55,828 nucleotides of DNA from Deltaproteobacteria bacterium (GTDB taxonomy: Bacteria > Myxococcota_A > UBA9160 > UBA4427). Location: positions 1 to 55,828 of the forward strand of contig JAJDAN010000090.1 in the NCBI GenBank assembly GCA_029261855.1, in the 5' to 3' direction. The translations under genes were made by a program, and so were the position numbers. The stretch's first letter is position 1. Each line of letters starts with the position of its first letter. A model generated the notes under the pieces. The model was given only the letters and a program-made list of their open reading frames with translations, did not search any database and was not told where the DNA came from. This document shows, piece after piece, positions 38,582-49,493 of this stretch.

Positions 38582-41350
38582 CTAGAACGAGACCCGCAAG
38601 CTGCCGCCGTAGGTGCGGGGGTCGCCGACGAAGTAGATCGTCGTGCTGTTGAAGGTGCTGCCGTCGAAGGCGAAGTTCTTGTAGGCCTCGTCGGTCAGGT
38701 TGCGGACCCAGGCGGCGATTTCGATCTGGGTGGCCCCCGGCGGCGTCCAGGCGACGCGAAGGTTGTGGATCCAGAAGGGCTTCTGGGCGGTGGTGTTCTT
38801 GGGTAGGAACTGCTGGTTCGCGTTGTTCGGGATGCCGCGTCCTTCGGTGGCGTCGTAGTAGGTGGTGTCCGTCCACACGCCATCGTAGCGAGGAGTCAGA
38901 TTGCCGAAGCGGCCCAGGGGGAACGACTGCTCGGCTGTGATGCTGACCTTGAACTGCGGCGAGTTCAGGAGACGGTTGCCCGTATTGTTCAGCTCGCGGT
39001 TTACGACCGTCTGCCGGCCGGCGATGGTCGTGATGTCCTGCTGGAGCTGGACGAAGTCGACGAACTGGCTCTCGAGCCAACCGAAGCGGACGTTCACGAA
39101 GGCCCCGTCCCAGGGACGTCCCGAAACGTCGACCTCGGCGCCGTATACCTCGGCCTTGTTGGCGTTGAGGATCACGAATTCCGGCTGTCCACCGGCGAAC
39201 TGCTGGGCGGTGAAGAGCTGGTAGTTCTCGTACTTGTAGTAGAAGAGCGAGAAGTCGAGATTCAGGCGCCCTTCGAACCAGCTGCCCTTCAGGCCGGTCT
39301 CGAAAGAATCGAGAGTCTCGGGCTTCGCCGTCGACACGCCGGCGCTGATGGAGCTGGTGGCGTTGTAGGTGCCGGGCTTCCAGCCGCGGGTGTATTTCCA
39401 GAAGACGTGGGTGTCTTCGCGGAAGCGATAGGTGAGCCGGATGGTGCCGGTCGGCGCGGTCCACTCGTCGTTCAGCTTCTGGAAGATGAAGTCGGGACTG
39501 CCGCCGCGCGCGAGGCTGTAGTCGAGCTTCTTCTGCTCCCAGTTGTATCGGACGCCACCGAAGAGGGTGAAGTCTTCCCAGAAGTCGAAGGACAGGCTCG
39601 CGTAGCCGGCGGCGCTCCACAGGTCCTGGGTGTAGTCCCGCTCGCCGACGCCGAACGCCGAGAACGGACCGAGGTCGTTCACGACGTTGACGTTGAGCTG
39701 TTCCCGCATGAACCAGCCGCCTACGTCCCAGCGGATGTCGGCCTGCTCGCCGTAGGAACCCTCGAGGCGGACATCCTGGGTCACCTGCCAGCCGTCGTCG
39801 TCGGTGAAGATGTGGAAGAGGGTCTCTGGCGAGAAGTCGAGGTCCCACGCGATGTCCCGGTCGTAGCCGTCGCCGCCGGTGACCGTGGTGAGCTGCATGC
39901 CTCCCCAGGGAAGCGCGATCTCGCCCTTGAGGTATCCGCCGTAGGTGTCGTTGTGGGTCGGGCCGGTCAGGTTGAAGTCACCCACGTACGGCTTCGAGTC
40001 GAGGTTCCTGGCCAGCTCGTTCGCCAGCTGGATCTTGGCCTGGTTGTCGTCGGCACGCTTCAGGTCGCGATCGGGGTTGCTGTTGCAGGTGCCCGCCGGG
40101 GAACCGGGCACGCTCGCGTTGCAGGGGGCCAGCTCGATCAGCCGCGCCCGGATCTCCTGGGGCTGGTACCCGGTGGTGGCGATGCCCTGCTGACCGCCCA
40201 GCACGCCGTTGACCCGAGAGCTGCCGTCGTCTCCGGGAATCGGGGGCCGGTATCCGCAGTTGGTGATGTCGTCGTTCAGGCAGTAGAAGCCGTTGACGCC
40301 GATGGACTGTCCGAGGCGGGTCGTTTCGTCCCGGCGGGAGCCGTGGCCGGAGACCAGCCAGGTCATGTCGAGGGTCGGCTGCAGGAGGAAGGTGCCGCGC
40401 AGGGCCCAGATGTCGCGGTTGTTGACCTTCGGCTTGAGGCCTTCGGGGATCGTCGAGCGGTTCTGGGTCTGCGGGAGCCGCTCGACCGGCTCTCCGCAGA
40501 TCGACCAGGGCGGGTCGGTGTTCTTCACACCAAGGGCCACCTGCTGGTTGAAGGAGGGAACCTGGGCGCGATCCGCGAAGGGAATCGCATTGCCGCAGCG
40601 GTTCTTCATGGTGCCGTCGCGCTCGGACACGCGGAAGGCGAAGCGGGCGGCGAGGATGTCCTCCCACATGGGTGCCTCGACGGCACCCTCGTAGTCGCGA
40701 TAGTCGTAGTCGCCGATCTCGGAATAGAAGTAGCCGCCGTAGTCGCCCGAGGGCTTGCGGCTGTAGATCTTGATGGCACCCGCCGAAGCGTTGCGCGCGA
40801 GGCCCGTTCCCTGGGGCCCTCGCAGCACGTTGACGGTTTCGACGTCGAACAGCAGCGGCAGCTGGAGCGCGGGCGCGTTCCTCGCGACGTCGTCCTGGTA
40901 GATGGCGACTGCACCCGTCGAGTTGGAGTTGAAGTCGTTCAGGCCGACGCCGCGAATGAAGAAGGTGGGCGAGGTCGCACCAGAGGTCACGATTTCCAGG
41001 TTCGGCGTGAACGACGCCAGGTCGGCGAGGTTCTGGGCACCGAGCGCTGCCAGGTCCTCGGCGCCGAAGCCGGTCACCGAGTCCGCGGTCGCGAAGTCTT
41101 CCGCGGAGTCGGACTCGGCACCCCGGACGACGATCTCCTCGATGCCGCTCGGCGGCGGCTCGGATCCGCCGCTCGGCGGCGGCTCGGATCCACTGCTCGG
41201 CGGGGTGTCCGCGTCCTGGGCAATGGCCGCAGGCCCGGCGGCGACTGCCGCGAAGAGCACCAGCAGCCAGAGGCCGGTGCCGAACGCCCGAAGTCCCACC
41301 TGGAGGGGGCCGAGGTCGAAGGCCTGTGAATAGAGGAACCGTCCTGTCAT
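38582..41350 (-). CDS. TonB-dependent outer-membrane receptor
   Basis: This 922-residue protein has a signal peptide ending in AAIAQ and a Ser/Pro/Glu repeat linker. A TonB box-like IEEIVVRG leads into a plug domain (FFIRGVGLNDFNSNSTGAVAIY, ETVNVLRGPQGTGLARNASA). A 22-strand-type barrel ends in GGSLRVSF with terminal Phe. The FTPNLEIVTSG and RGPQGTGLARNASAGAI patterns are those of receptors for organic substrates in heterotrophs rather than of a specific siderophore class. The ligand is unknown. ATG 41350 has GAAGGA upstream; the frame is open to 41413. It presumably depends on the TonB operon at 44-49 kb. Confidence 0.92.
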   Translation of the reverse strand: MTGRFLYSQAFDLGPLQVGLRAFGTGLWLLVLFAAVAAGPAAIAQDADTPPSSGSEPPPSGGSEPPPSGIEEIVVRGAESDSAEDFATADSVTGFGAEDLAALGAQNLADLASFTPNLEIVTSGATSPTFFIRGVGLNDFNSNSTGAVAIYQDDVARNAPALQLPLLFDVETVNVLRGPQGTGLARNASAGAIKIYSRKPSGDYGGYFYSEIGDYDYRDYEGAVEAPMWEDILAARFAFRVSERDGTMKNRCGNAIPFADRAQVPSFNQQVALGVKNTDPPWSICGEPVERLPQTQNRSTIPEGLKPKVNNRDIWALRGTFLLQPTLDMTWLVSGHGSRRDETTRLGQSIGVNGFYCLNDDITNCGYRPPIPGDDGSSRVNGVLGGQQGIATTGYQPQEIRARLIELAPCNASVPGSPAGTCNSNPDRDLKRADDNQAKIQLANELARNLDSKPYVGDFNLTGPTHNDTYGGYLKGEIALPWGGMQLTTVTGGDGYDRDIAWDLDFSPETLFHIFTDDDGWQVTQDVRLEGSYGEQADIRWDVGGWFMREQLNVNVVNDLGPFSAFGVGERDYTQDLWSAAGYASLSFDFWEDFTLFGGVRYNWEQKKLDYSLARGGSPDFIFQKLNDEWTAPTGTIRLTYRFREDTHVFWKYTRGWKPGTYNATSSISAGVSTAKPETLDSFETGLKGSWFEGRLNLDFSLFYYKYENYQLFTAQQFAGGQPEFVILNANKAEVYGAEVDVSGRPWDGAFVNVRFGWLESQFVDFVQLQQDITTIAGRQTVVNRELNNTGNRLLNSPQFKVSITAEQSFPLGRFGNLTPRYDGVWTDTTYYDATEGRGIPNNANQQFLPKNTTAQKPFWIHNLRVAWTPPGATQIEIAAWVRNLTDEAYKNFAFDGSTFNSTTIYFVGDPRTYGGSLRVSF
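41149..41200. repeat. 21-bp in-frame repeat in TonB receptor linker
   Basis: CTCGGCGGCGGCTCGGATCC-type units repeat with a 21-bp period and encode SGSEPPP/SGGSEPPP on the minus strand, between the signal peptide and the TonB box. Extra copies would lengthen the periplasmic linker without a frameshift. Confidence 0.8.
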
Positions 41351-41451
41351 CGCGTCCTTCTGAATCTTCGACCGGATGCTCGAATGCAACCGTGGGCAAT
41401 CGTTCTTCGGCATGGCATTCGGAGCCTCGAAGTATGTAACACTATGAGGCC

Positions 41452-44141: not shown

Positions 44142-44975
44142 ATGAATTGGTCAGCAAGTGTCGCCTCGGCCGTTCTGGCGGGAGCATTGGTGCTTCCCTT
44201 GGGCGCCGTCGCACAGAACGCCTCGCCGAACGGCGCGCGGGAACCCGCTGCCGAGAGCGCCGATGCGGGTCAGCTCGAGCGCGTGCTGGACGTTCGGTCG
44301 GGCGGGAACGACGACGCCGCTGGCGCCCAGAAGCGGATCGATGCGCTCAGCGACGAGACGGACGATCTGCTTCGTAAGTATCGGTCCCTCCTGAAGCAGA
44401 TCGATTCGATCGACATCTACAACGGACAGATGCGTGAGTTGCTCCAGGCGCAGGATGACGAGATCGCGTCACTCGTCGACCAGGTGGGCCGAATTCAGAG
44501 TGTCGGCCGCAGTGTGACCCCGCTGATGTTCCGCATGGTCGACGCGCTCGAGAAGTTCGTCGACCTGGACGTGCCTTTCCTTCCGCAGGAACGCGGCGAG
44601 CGCATCGCCAGTCTCCGGGAGATGATGGGACGGGCGGACGTCACGACTGCCGAGAAGTTCCGCCAGATCATGGAGGCCTACCAGATCGAGAACGAGTACG
44701 GCCGCACGATCGAAGCCTACCGCGCATCCCTGGTCCAGGACGGCAAGGAGTCCACCGTCGACTTCCTGCGTTTCGGTCGGATCGCGCTCGTCTATCAAAC
44801 CCTCGATGAGAGCCAGTCGGGACGCTGGGATCAGGATTCCGGGGCCTGGGTCACGCTCGACTCGAGCCATCGGACTCCGATTCGAAACGGACTGCGGATC
44901 GCGCGCAAGCAGGCCGCACCCGATCTCGTCCTGTTGCCCTTGCCGGCCCCGACCAACGCGCAGGAGTCGAAGTAA
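44142..44975 (+). CDS. DUF3450 periplasmic coiled-coil protein of a TonB2-type operon
   Basis: This 277-residue protein has a signal peptide (AVLAGALVLPLGAVAQ) and a coiled-coil segment (KRIDALSDETDDLLRKYRSL, LLQAQDDEIASLVDQVG). A conserved DUF3450 body follows with FVDLDVPFLPQERGERI, YQIENEYGRTIEAYRASL and ALVYQTLDESQSGRWD. In Vibrio and Shewanella-type TonB systems this family is encoded first in the energising operon. ATG 44142 is preceded by GGAGAGAG; earlier in-frame starts give an Arg-rich extension. Its TAA overlaps the next ATG (TAATG). Confidence 0.85.
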   Translation: MNWSASVASAVLAGALVLPLGAVAQNASPNGAREPAAESADAGQLERVLDVRSGGNDDAAGAQKRIDALSDETDDLLRKYRSLLKQIDSIDIYNGQMRELLQAQDDEIASLVDQVGRIQSVGRSVTPLMFRMVDALEKFVDLDVPFLPQERGERIASLREMMGRADVTTAEKFRQIMEAYQIENEYGRTIEAYRASLVQDGKESTVDFLRFGRIALVYQTLDESQSGRWDQDSGAWVTLDSSHRTPIRNGLRIARKQAAPDLVLLPLPAPTNAQESK

Positions 44976-46363
44976 TGTGGATCCGGACGTCTGCGTCGAT
45001 CACGATGCTCGCTGTGGCGCTCGCCGCTTCGGTGGCCGGTGCCCAGTCGCCTGATGCGAAGAAGCCCACGGCTGGGGATCCGAAAACGCTCTTCGAGCTG
45101 CTCGACCTGGTGCAGGGCGGCCTACAGGTGGAGAAGGAGGAGCATCGCCGTCGCGAGCAGGAATTCATCCGCGCCAAGTCGGACCAGGAGCGCCTCCTCG
45201 CCGAGGCCCGCGCCACCCTCGCGAAGAAGGAGGCGGTCAGTCAGCAGCTCGAGAACGACTACAACGAGAAGGAGAAGATGATCGGTGAGAAGCAGGCGCT
45301 TCTGACCGAGCAACTCGGCCAGCTCGGCGAGCTCTTCGGCGTCGTGCGACAGGTCGCCACGGACGCCAGCGGCCAGGTGTGGGATTCGCTGACGAGTTCG
45401 CAGCTCGGCGCCCGCAAGGAACTGCTCGACCGACTGGGACGCAGCAAGGAGCTGCCCTCGACGGACGACCTCGACGCCCTCTGGTACGAGCTGTTCCGCG
45501 AGATGACGCAGCAAGGTCAAGTGGTTCGCTACACGGCCGACGTCCTCAAGACGAGCGGGGAAGTCGAGCAGCAGGAGGTCGTGCGCGCCGGACCGTTCAG
45601 CGCCGTTTCCGAAGGCAAGTACCTGCTGTGGGAGCCGAAGGAAGAGAAGCTGCGCGAGCTGACGCGTCAGCCGCCAGGCAAGTACCTCAGCACGGTCGAG
45701 CCCTTCGAGGAGACTCTGAGCGGTACCGCGGTTCTCGCCGTCGATCCTTCGCGCGGGTCGCTGCTGAACGCCCTGACCGACACGCCGAACTTCACCGAGC
45801 GGATCCAGGCCGGTGGCTACGTCGGTTACACGATCATCGCGCTGGGTGCGATGGCGTTCCTTCTGGGCATCGTGCGCTGGCTGACGGTGTTCATCACCAG
45901 TCGCAAGGTCGCGTCGCAGCAGAAGAGCGACTACGTCAACGAAGGCAATCCGTTGGGTCGCGTCCTGAAGGTGTTCGAGGACAACCGACAGGCGGATGCC
46001 GAGACCCTCGAGCTCAAGCTCGACGCCATCGTGTTGCGGGAGTCCTCGAAGGTCCAACGGCTCAACTGGATCGTGAAGACGGTCTCCGCGGTCGCACCGC
46101 TGCTGGGTCTGCTGGGAACCGTCACCGGTATGATCCAGACCTTCCAGGCGATCACGCTCTTCGGTGCCGGCGATCCCAAGATGATGGCCGGCGGTATCTC
46201 GGAGGCCCTGGTGACCACGATGCTGGGTCTGATGACCGCGATTCCGCTCGTGTTGCTCTACGACACGCTCGCGAACAGCGCTCGCCACGTGACCGACATC
46301 CTCGACGAGCAGAGCGCGGGGTTGATCGCGGCGCGCGCGGAGAGGGATCATGCTGGAGTATGA
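44975..46363 (+). CDS. TtpC-like MotA/TolQ/ExbB proton-channel protein with N-terminal extension
   Basis: This 462-residue protein has a signal peptide and a periplasmic coiled-coil domain (EKEEHRRREQEFIRAKSDQE) of about 250 residues. A C-terminal ExbB/TolQ domain has three helices, with the signature APLLGLLGTVTGMIQTFQAI and ALVTTMLGLMTAIPLVLLYD. This is the architecture of TtpC, the fourth subunit of TonB2 systems. It belongs in the inner membrane and works with ExbB to power TonB. It overlaps DUF3450 by 1 nt and ExbB by 14 nt. Confidence 0.88.
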   Translation: MWIRTSASITMLAVALAASVAGAQSPDAKKPTAGDPKTLFELLDLVQGGLQVEKEEHRRREQEFIRAKSDQERLLAEARATLAKKEAVSQQLENDYNEKEKMIGEKQALLTEQLGQLGELFGVVRQVATDASGQVWDSLTSSQLGARKELLDRLGRSKELPSTDDLDALWYELFREMTQQGQVVRYTADVLKTSGEVEQQEVVRAGPFSAVSEGKYLLWEPKEEKLRELTRQPPGKYLSTVEPFEETLSGTAVLAVDPSRGSLLNALTDTPNFTERIQAGGYVGYTIIALGAMAFLLGIVRWLTVFITSRKVASQQKSDYVNEGNPLGRVLKVFEDNRQADAETLELKLDAIVLRESSKVQRLNWIVKTVSAVAPLLGLLGTVTGMIQTFQAITLFGAGDPKMMAGGISEALVTTMLGLMTAIPLVLLYDTLANSARHVTDILDEQSAGLIAARAERDHAGV

Positions 46364-46877
46364 GGCCGTCGGCGCGGTTCGCGATTTCGTCGAGCGGGGC
46401 GGTGACGTCCTGCTCGTGATTGCGTTCGCGACGGCCGTCATGTGGATGTTCATCTACGAGCGCATGTGGTACTTCCGCACGCAGCACAAGAAGGAAGTCG
46501 CGCGGGTCCAGGAGCTGTGGAAGGCGCGCGAGGACCAGAGCTCTTGGGAGTCGAGCCAGCTTCGCAGGATGTGGATCTCCCGCCTGCGCATGAAGCTCGA
46601 ACAGCGCCTCGGCGTGATCGAGACGATCGTGAAGCTGTGTCCGATGCTCGGGCTCCTCGGTACGGTGACGGGCATGATCGAGGTCTTCGACGTCATGGCG
46701 GTCTCCGGCAGCGGCAACGCCCGCGGCATGGCGATGGGCGTCTCCAAGGCGACCCTGCCGACCATGGCCGGGATGGTCGCGGCACTTTCCGGGATGTTGT
46801 TCAGCATCCAATTCCAACGCTTCGCGCGTGACGAGGCCGAGCGGGTCGAGGACACGCTCGAGGTCGGCCATCTCTAG
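46350..46877 (+). CDS. exbB: ExbB-type proton channel subunit
   Basis: This 175-residue inner-membrane protein of ExbB2 type starts with helix LLVIAFATAVMWMFIYERMW, a cytoplasmic loop, then LCPMLGLLGTVTGMIEVFDVM and TLPTMAGMVAALSGMLFSI. It forms the pentameric channel that normally surrounds an ExbD dimer. No exbD follows: only 33 nt separate it from tonB. It overlaps the TtpC-like gene by 14 nt. Confidence 0.9.
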   Translation: MLEYEAVGAVRDFVERGGDVLLVIAFATAVMWMFIYERMWYFRTQHKKEVARVQELWKAREDQSSWESSQLRRMWISRLRMKLEQRLGVIETIVKLCPMLGLLGTVTGMIEVFDVMAVSGSGNARGMAMGVSKATLPTMAGMVAALSGMLFSIQFQRFARDEAERVEDTLEVGHL

Positions 46878-46910
46878 AACCCGAACCCGGATGCGGTCCA
46901 GGACGATTCA

Positions 46911-47540
46911 TTGATACGCCCCTTCGCCAGCTTGTTGATCACCATTGCGCTCGGCGTGCTGACGGCGTTCGGGCTCTTCTGGGTGATGCAGTCCCTCGTC
47001 AACGTCGAGGGCGAACTCGAGGCGAGCGGCTCGCGTCTCAGTATCGATTTCGTGCGTCTTCGCCGGGACAACACGCCTGAGGCGAAGAAGCGTGAGCCCC
47101 CGAAGCGGGAGAAGCCCGAGCAGGCGCCGCCGCCGCCGGACATGAACATGGCGAAAGCGATGAACCCCGGGGATGCCGTCGGAGAGATCATCCCGATGGT
47201 AGATACCGGTATGGAGCTCGAGGCGGCCACCAGTCTCAACACCGGGAGTTCCGGCAGTGATCGCGACATCGTTCCCCTCGTGCGCGTCGATCCCGAGTAC
47301 CCGCCGCGCGCAAAGCAGCGGGGCATTGGCGGTTATGTGGACGTCGAGTTCACGATCGGTCCGCTGGGAACCGTGCAGGATGCGAAGGTGATTGGCTCGA
47401 ATCCGACCTACGTGTTCGATCGCGCGACGTTGCGCGCGATCCGGAAGTGGCGATACAACCCGAAGGTCGTGGATGGGGTCCCGGTCGCCCGGACCGGCAT
47501 CCAGGTGCGTATCCGCTTCGACCCGGCGCAGGCACGATGA
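46911..47540 (+). CDS. tonB: TonB energy-transducing protein
   Basis: This 209-residue protein has an N-terminal anchor (ASLLITIALGVLTAFGLFWVM) and a short Lys/Pro/Glu spacer (KREPPKREKPEQAPPPPD). A C-terminal TonB domain carries RVDPEYPPRAKQRGIGGYV, VEFTIGPLGTVQDAKV and RATLRAIRKWRYNPKVVDG. The spacer is too short to span a wide periplasm, typical of TonB2 proteins. The start is TTG 46911 with AGGA 8 nt upstream. Its stop overlaps the TPR gene start (ATGA). Confidence 0.9.
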   Translation: MIRPFASLLITIALGVLTAFGLFWVMQSLVNVEGELEASGSRLSIDFVRLRRDNTPEAKKREPPKREKPEQAPPPPDMNMAKAMNPGDAVGEIIPMVDTGMELEAATSLNTGSSGSDRDIVPLVRVDPEYPPRAKQRGIGGYVDVEFTIGPLGTVQDAKVIGSNPTYVFDRATLRAIRKWRYNPKVVDGVPVARTGIQVRIRFDPAQAR

Positions 47541-48874
47541 TGCGGCTGCGCGCGATTTCGCTGCTGATCCTGATCGTGTTGATCTCCCCGCCCGTGTGGG
47601 CGGCGGAAGCGGCCCCCGACCGGGCGGCGCGAGAGGCGGCCGAGGTCGAGGCGGAGGCGGAAGCCCGTGCCGGAGTCGTTGCGGTCGAGGAAGAGCCGAT
47701 CGACCTCGAAGAGGTGGTGGCGGACCGCAGACGCAAGGCATCCTTGTACCAGGTGAAGCCCCGCATCTCGCGCTACCTGGCCGCGGCGGCGGAAAAGGCA
47801 GACGAGGGCTCCGTAGAAGACGGGCTCGCTCTCCTCGACCGGCTCAGCATGCCCCGCCTCAATCGCCAGGAACGCGCGATGGTCTACCGCTTGCGGGGCT
47901 TTCTCGCCTATACCGACGGCGACTACGAAGGCACCATCGCAGCGTTCGAGAAAGTCCTCGGCGAGGAAGTGCTGCCTCTCGACGCCGAGAACAAGATCCG
48001 CTTCAACATCGCGCAGCTGCGCGCGGCGGCCCAGCAATGGGACAAGGTGATTCCCGCGATCAAGCGCTGGACCCGCTACGTCCCGAGTCCGACCCCGCTC
48101 TCCTACTACCTGCTCGGGATCTCGTACTACCAGCTCGGTCAGATGGACCTGGCCATCGAGAACACCGAGAAGGCGGTCGACGCGTCTCCGGAACCGACGG
48201 AAGGCTGGTTGCAGCTGCTGGCGGCGCTGTACGTCCAGAAAGAAGACTATGTGAACGCGACGCCGGTGCTCGAAGAGCTGGTGATGCGCTTCCCGAAGAA
48301 GCAGTACTGGAACCAGCTTTCGCTCATCTACGGGGCACGCGACGACTACCGTCACGCACTGGCCGTGCAGCAGGTTGCCTACCTTCAGGGGTTCCTCACG
48401 GAAGACAAGGAGCTGCGCCGCCTGGTGCGTTCCTATCTCTATCACGAGCTTCCCTACCCGGCAGCGAAGATCCTCGAGAAGGGTCTCGCCGATGGTCGGA
48501 TCGAAGCGGACGCGTCGGCGTATGAGATGCTGGCCAACAGCTTGATCGCGGCGCGGGAGTACGACCAGTCCCTGGAGCCTCTGCAGAAGGCCGCCGAGCT
48601 GTCGCCGGACGGAAAGCTGCTGATCCGACTTGGCCAGGTGTACCTGCAACGAGAAGATTGGACGAAGGCGGCCGAAAGCTTCGAGCAGGCACTCGCCAAG
48701 GGTGGGCTCGAGAACCCGGGGTCCGCGGAGCTGCTGCTCGGAATCTCGTACTACGAGAGCCAGCGGGTCGGTCGGGCGCGCGCAGCCTTCCTGCGTGCGC
48801 GAGGCTATGCCAAGGCGCGCGCCGAAGCGGACAGCTGGATCACGCACCTCGCCAACGAGGCCAGCAAGAGTTGA
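47537..48874 (+). CDS. TPR-repeat periplasmic protein of the TonB operon
   Basis: This 445-residue protein has a signal peptide (LLILIVLISPPVWA). An Ala/Glu-rich stretch follows (EAAEVEAEAEARAGVVAVEE), then several tetratricopeptide repeats (LRGFLAYTDGDYEGTIAAFE, LLGISYYQLGQMDLAIENTE, RLGQVYLQREDWTKAAESFE). TPR proteins are commonly the last gene of DUF3450-TonB2 operons and may couple TonB to partners. ATG 47537 overlaps the tonB stop (ATGA). Confidence 0.85.
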   Translation: MMRLRAISLLILIVLISPPVWAAEAAPDRAAREAAEVEAEAEARAGVVAVEEEPIDLEEVVADRRRKASLYQVKPRISRYLAAAAEKADEGSVEDGLALLDRLSMPRLNRQERAMVYRLRGFLAYTDGDYEGTIAAFEKVLGEEVLPLDAENKIRFNIAQLRAAAQQWDKVIPAIKRWTRYVPSPTPLSYYLLGISYYQLGQMDLAIENTEKAVDASPEPTEGWLQLLAALYVQKEDYVNATPVLEELVMRFPKKQYWNQLSLIYGARDDYRHALAVQQVAYLQGFLTEDKELRRLVRSYLYHELPYPAAKILEKGLADGRIEADASAYEMLANSLIAAREYDQSLEPLQKAAELSPDGKLLIRLGQVYLQREDWTKAAESFEQALAKGGLENPGSAELLLGISYYESQRVGRARAAFLRARGYAKARAEADSWITHLANEASKS

Positions 48875-48884
48875 GCCGCGTCGA

Positions 48885-48905
48885 GGGGGTCGGCATCGAT
48901 CCCCC
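48885..48905 (+). terminator. Weak stem-loop after the TonB operon
   Basis: GGGGGTCG at 48885-48892 can pair with CGA and CCCCC at 48897-48905, with one bulged T and loop GCAT. There is no U-tract. It could attenuate transcription between the TPR gene and the DUF1232 gene. Confidence 0.35.
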
Positions 48906-48947
48906 CGCAGCCCGACTCCCTCTCATATTCCGACATCGGAGATCAGG

Positions 48948-49493
48948 ATGAAGGTCAGCTTCGAGCTCAGCCCCAGGGACATGAAGTACTTCCGCGAGCG
49001 GCTCAAGATCGCCCGCGAGGGTGCCGAGAGTCGCGACGAGACCGAGGTGATCCGGCTGGCGAAAGAGCTGGTGGCCGAGGCGATCGAGTCCGAGCCGCCG
49101 GAGTTCGTGCTGGAGCGGATCTCGAAGCTCGAGTCGCTGGCGGAGATGCTCGAAGACGCCGAGTGGAAGCTGCTCGGGCCCGATCGTGCGCGCATCCTCG
49201 ACGCGCTGACCTACTTCGTCGATCCGGACGACCTGATCCCCGACCGGACTCCCGGGCTCGGCTACCTCGACGATGCGATCATGATCGAGCTGATTGCCCA
49301 GGAGCTGAAGCACGACATCACGGCCTACGAAGACTTCTGCACGTACCGCAAGAAGCTCCCGAAGGCGGCGCCCGTGGACAAGATCGAGGCCGGGCGCGAG
49401 AGATTGCAGTCCCGGATGAGGCGCCGTCGCCGGCGGGAACGCGACAACCGTCGCGGTCGTAGCTCGTCCCGCTCGCCCGACCGGCTGTGGTAG
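48948..49493 (+). CDS. YkvA/DUF1232-family protein with Arg/Ser-rich tail
   Basis: This 181-residue protein has the DUF1232 signature ALTYFVDPDDLIPDRTPGLG followed by YLDDAIMIELIAQELKHDI. This family often has membrane-spanning helices, but here the region is fairly polar. The C-terminus is strongly basic (SRMRRRRRRERDNRRGRSSS), suggesting RNA, DNA or membrane-phosphate binding. GGAG 7 nt before ATG 48948 supports the start. It follows the TonB operon by 73 nt, with a weak hairpin between. The function is unknown. Confidence 0.75.
   Translation: MKVSFELSPRDMKYFRERLKIAREGAESRDETEVIRLAKELVAEAIESEPPEFVLERISKLESLAEMLEDAEWKLLGPDRARILDALTYFVDPDDLIPDRTPGLGYLDDAIMIELIAQELKHDITAYEDFCTYRKKLPKAAPVDKIEAGRERLQSRMRRRRRRERDNRRGRSSSRSPDRLW

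Follow-up and report, generated by a model that had tools for sequence, protein, structure and literature searches.

A TonB2-type operon without exbD and a solitary TonB2-class exbD elsewhere in the same genome

The TonB2-type operon of the window

The stretch of DNA analyzed here, referred to as the window, comprises 55,828 nucleotides of contig C90 from the draft genome of a deltaproteobacterium. It contains an operon of five genes, all on the plus strand and in the order ttpB-ttpC-exbB-tonB-ttpD, with the names ttpB, ttpC and ttpD taken from Vibrio (PMC6957404). An earlier note on this DNA had proposed the order DUF3450-TtpC-ExbB-TonB-TPR for positions 44142-48874, and both the open reading frames and the Pfam models bear this out. 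The operon and its downstream neighbor are made up of the following features:

44142-44975, plus strand: ttpB (DUF3450), first gene of the operon (Pfam PF11932, E=1.1e-84)
44975-46363, plus strand: ttpC, a large MotA/TolQ/ExbB-family protein of 462 aa (Pfam PF01618)
46350-46877, plus strand: exbB, a small protein of 175 aa (Pfam PF01618)
46878-46910: exbB-tonB spacer of 33 nt, the position of exbD in canonical TonB2 operons
46911-47540, plus strand: tonB, with a TTG start (Pfam PF03544, TonB_C, E=1.3e-23)
about 47537-48874, plus strand: ttpD, a TPR protein (TPR models; HMM match 47684-48871)
48875-48947: spacer of 73 nt, the exbD slot in the sister operons of G012, G014, G018, G021, G015 and G009
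48948-49493, plus strand: DUF1232 gene

The operon is of the TonB2 type in that a DUF3450 gene comes first, TonB and a TPR protein are encoded downstream, and two MotA/ExbB-family proteins are present, a long TtpC with an N-terminal extension and a short ExbB (two MotA_ExbB matches by Pfam, E=4e-28 and 4e-22). Both proteins align and tree with TtpC and ExbB of Pseudoalteromonas and others. In an alignment to 5sv0, Thr382, Glu410 and Thr415 of TtpC are the equivalents of Thr148, Glu176 and Thr181 of E. coli ExbB. The small ExbB keeps both pore threonines and carries a lysine at the Glu176 position, as do its relatives in our motif table. The pore residues kept in TtpC and ExbB are the counterparts of those that, in E. 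coli ExbB, face Asp25 of ExbD in the structure reviewed in PMC7014051. A TonB-dependent receptor gene (38582-41413), located upstream of this operon and encoded on the other strand, is a candidate client of the system.

Absence of exbD from the operon and a solitary copy on contig C48

The operon does not carry exbD between exbB and tonB, and because of this we class it as a TonB2 variant. The earlier note had reported a 33-nt gap between these two genes and no ExbD in the window, and both observations held. When the whole genome was searched with the Pfam model for ExbD, contig C90 gave no match, and a clade-specific ExbD HMM run against all six frames of the window returned nothing better than E=13. 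The window sequence contains 0 N. For comparison, we examined 80 TonB2 loci, mostly from Gammaproteobacteria with some from Alpha-, Delta- and Myxococcota, and exbD lies after exbB and before tonB in every locus that is uncut by a contig end. Because the ExbD searches were empty and the uncut comparison loci have the gene, the absence of exbD from the window operon is real and unusual. The note's premise that exbD normally sits between exbB and tonB thus holds for those uncut loci, but not for the operon's own clade, where the ancestral slot follows the TPR gene.

Searches of the window's class covered 90 genomes, and most of the operons there are canonical as well. G030 was considered as a second natural operon without exbD and rejected, since runs of 100 N recur there about every 2.5 kb and one of them adjoins the end of exbB; the sequence (L109) is presented as one contig, looks like joined fragments, and gene absence in it means little. 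The operons of G001, G004, G027, G049 and G071 (C420) were likewise rejected because contig ends cut them. Two tandem ExbD matches between exbB and tonB occur at seven loci from Alpha- and Gammaproteobacteria (L141, L143, L169, L174, L180, L208 and L209). In the literature, we found no paper with these gene names in Myxococcota.

The earlier note had left room for an exbD elsewhere in the genome and proposed a genome-wide search for ExbD/TolR homologues. That search revealed 10 ExbD-family genes, nine of which adjoin an ExbB-family gene. The single exception is on contig C48 (L014:6330-6734, minus strand), between hemG and hemH. Its product is an ExbD/TolR protein by Pfam (PF02472, E=1e-30) and belongs to the TonB2 class, being about 77-90% identical to the exbD products of complete operons in the clade (88% to G003 and 87% to G012, both with complete operons, and 90% to G073). 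It has an N-terminal transmembrane helix with the motif NLTPMLDVVFIM, in which the essential Asp25 is intact, followed by a periplasmic domain. Additionally, it aligns with the solved ExbD 7ajq over residues 10-129, with the aspartate conserved, and also with 6tyi.

In principle, one of the nine further ExbD-family proteins, either TolR-like or from another Ton/Agl-like cluster, might serve the window operon while the C48 protein works elsewhere. We regard this as improbable, since each of the nine genes adjoins an ExbB gene of its own and none of those with a reported identity exceeds 38% to the TonB2 class, against about 77-90% for the C48 protein.

The window operon is not alone in lacking exbD. 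On contig C83 there is a paralog of it, a TtpB-TtpC-ExbB-TonB-TPR operon (L012:5494-10150, minus strand) that has no exbD either and in which a gap of 17 nt separates exbB from tonB. Among the strong TtpC/ExbB loci of this genome, ExbD is missing from just those on C90 and C83; two more ExbB-family matches, on C32 and C34, are weak (37 and 23 bits). Thus, two operons without exbD and one exbD without an operon occur in the same genome.

The solitary gene was compared with its counterpart in G001, a genome of the same genus. The two are 93% identical, with dN of 0.051 against dS of 0.707 (dN/dS about 0.07), indicating that C48 exbD is kept by purifying selection. Upstream of the gene, one sigma70-like promoter was found where 0.0 were expected, as a match to the consensus only. 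No shared Fur-type site was found upstream, the best matches being no better than shuffles.

History of the exbD slot

In G001, exbD is found at the same hem locus, between hemG and the genes for an enoyl-CoA hydratase and HemH, so that the solitary gene is seen there in two independent assemblies. The G001 operon itself breaks off within ttpC at the end of its contig, and that locus therefore does not confirm a loss of exbD from the operon in G001. Twelve other genomes have a homologous hemG locus (about 46-57% identity), and exbD is present there in none of the 12; hemG and hemH are direct neighbors in most of those that show both genes. Therefore, this genus gained both exbD and the hydratase gene by insertion at the hem locus.

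Comparison with relatives, also proposed in the earlier note, located the slot from which exbD is missing. Six relatives (G012, G014, G018, G021, G015 and G009) have the order exbB-tonB-TPR-exbD, that of G009 being pieced together across two contigs. In a tree of TtpC and ExbB, the window operon is nested within this group (group support 100/98), on a branch with G014, G018 and G021 (support 96/87). From this nested position it follows that the ancestor already lacked exbD between exbB and tonB. Read from gene order and phylogeny, the ancestor of the window operon is one that carried exbD after the TPR gene, the trailing copy being lost later. In G014, G018 and G021 a DUF1232 homologue directly follows exbD, and in the window, where exbD is gone, 73 nt separate it from the TPR gene before it. 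The C83 operon groups instead with the canonical operon of G072 (support 87/96), and its loss of exbD was therefore a separate event.

A DUF1232 homologue also lies beside the solitary exbD in G001 (L100), which suggests a joint departure of exbD and this neighbor from a TonB2 locus. As to the source operon, of the window type or of the C83 type, AU tests on the ExbD tree, whose 133 columns are too few to tell the two apart, rejected none of the alternatives tried. DUF1232 genes recur on either strand beside TonB2 operons of the class (L094, L095, L096, L214, L105, L102 and L106), and DUF1232 is possibly a functional associate of these operons.

Other rearrangements were seen in the course of this comparison. 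G052 (C38, L121, 3853-8016) and G079 (C434, L215, 87-4208) contain a TtpB-TtpC-TonB-TPR set without exbB and exbD, and each also holds a complete operon and a solitary TonB2-class exbD (L112 and L216). In these sets TtpC may be the sole pore subunit, or ExbB may be borrowed from the complete operon. A solitary TonB2-class exbD additionally occurs in seven genomes of one genus (G027, G024, G028, G029, G010, G022 and G019; L114-L120), where the flanks examined contain neither ttpC nor exbB nor tonB of this type; these genomes also carry an operon with a more divergent ExbD.

Proposed arrangement and its relation to known systems

We consider it very likely that exbD was relocated, having been lost from both the C90 and the C83 operon, and that the one C48 ExbD serves both in trans. 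Comparison among relatives shows that the clade's exbD first left its place between exbB and tonB for the 3' end of the operon, downstream of the TPR gene. This genus then lost it from the window operon and also from the paralog on C83, and one TonB2-class copy stands alone between hemG and hemH. The solitary ExbD would be made in trans from its own promoter and, as a dimer, the usual form, would occupy the ExbB/TtpC pore in each of the two motors. Protons would be harvested via Asp25, and both TonB proteins would work by the ordinary mechanism. As far as sequence data can tell, the C48 ExbD is probably common to both motors. That the two motors also compete for an ExbD detached to a haem-synthesis locus and perhaps free of iron control, with its supply coupling both, is a more tentative proposal that we hold to be possible but doubtful. 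More radically, one of the C90 and C83 motors might run without ExbD.

A motor free of ExbD, with TonB, TtpC or TtpB at the pore position, would account for the absence of the gene from two operons, and G052 and G079 have sets that lack both exbB and exbD. However, the transmembrane segments of TonB and TtpC resemble those of relatives with ExbD and contain no acidic residue, so that substitution by another subunit, the second option raised in the earlier note, is unsupported. Furthermore, the threonines that face ExbD are retained, a TonB2-class exbD is maintained under purifying selection, G052 and G079 have a solitary exbD as well, and ExbD2 is reported to be essential in the TonB2 system of Vibrio vulnificus (PMC6957404). 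We therefore judge an ExbD-free motor highly improbable. There is similarly little chance that the two operons are decaying remnants: the loss of a single gene can start decay, but each operon has its five genes intact, GC3 in the window is coding-like, and the terminal branch of C90 in the TtpC and ExbB tree equals the median (0.24), that of C83 being 0.41. Lastly, an assembly deletion, which the earlier note had named as grounds for discarding its observation and which a draft of 91 contigs might invite, is scarcely credible, because a second, separate operon also lacks exbD and the relocated gene occupies the same locus in two independent assemblies; moreover, the genes on either side are undamaged and normally spaced, the sequence has no N, and the vacancy between exbB and tonB is accounted for by the nested position in the tree.

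Thus, exbD is truly missing from the window operon, and this reflects neither a deletion in the assembly nor a motor that dispenses with ExbD. The operon is a rearranged variant of the known TonB2 system, and the subunit that harvests protons has not been given up. The case shows that exbD can leave a tightly ordered TonB2 operon in two steps, to the 3' end and later to a remote site, and that two motors of the TonB2 type may share a single ExbD. It offers a natural test case for the specificity of ExbD toward its ExbB/TtpC partners. It also cautions that, when a motor operon lacks a subunit, the whole genome needs to be searched before an ExbD-free motor is postulated.

The TonB2 operon of Vibrio vulnificus has the order ttpB2-ttpC2-exbB2-exbD2-tonB2-ttpD2, and all six proteins, ExbD2 included, are reported to be essential for siderophore uptake (PMC6957404). 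The window operon shares with it the gene families, the order of the five genes present and the membership of both TtpC and ExbB in the MotA/ExbB family. It differs in that exbD lies outside the operon, alone on another contig, and in that the genome has two operons without exbD. Similar to the operons of G012, G014, G018, G021, G015 and G009, among which it nests, it has a DUF1232 neighbor, present in three of them; those operons keep exbD at the 3' end, whereas the window operon does not. Another parallel is the Ton system of Sphingobium SYK-6, which has six tonB-like genes alongside a single tonB1-exbB1-exbD1-exbD2 operon (PMC8599685). There, as here, parts of the motor are encoded at separate loci, but in SYK-6 it is the tonB genes that are dispersed, while in the present genome it is exbD that is detached.
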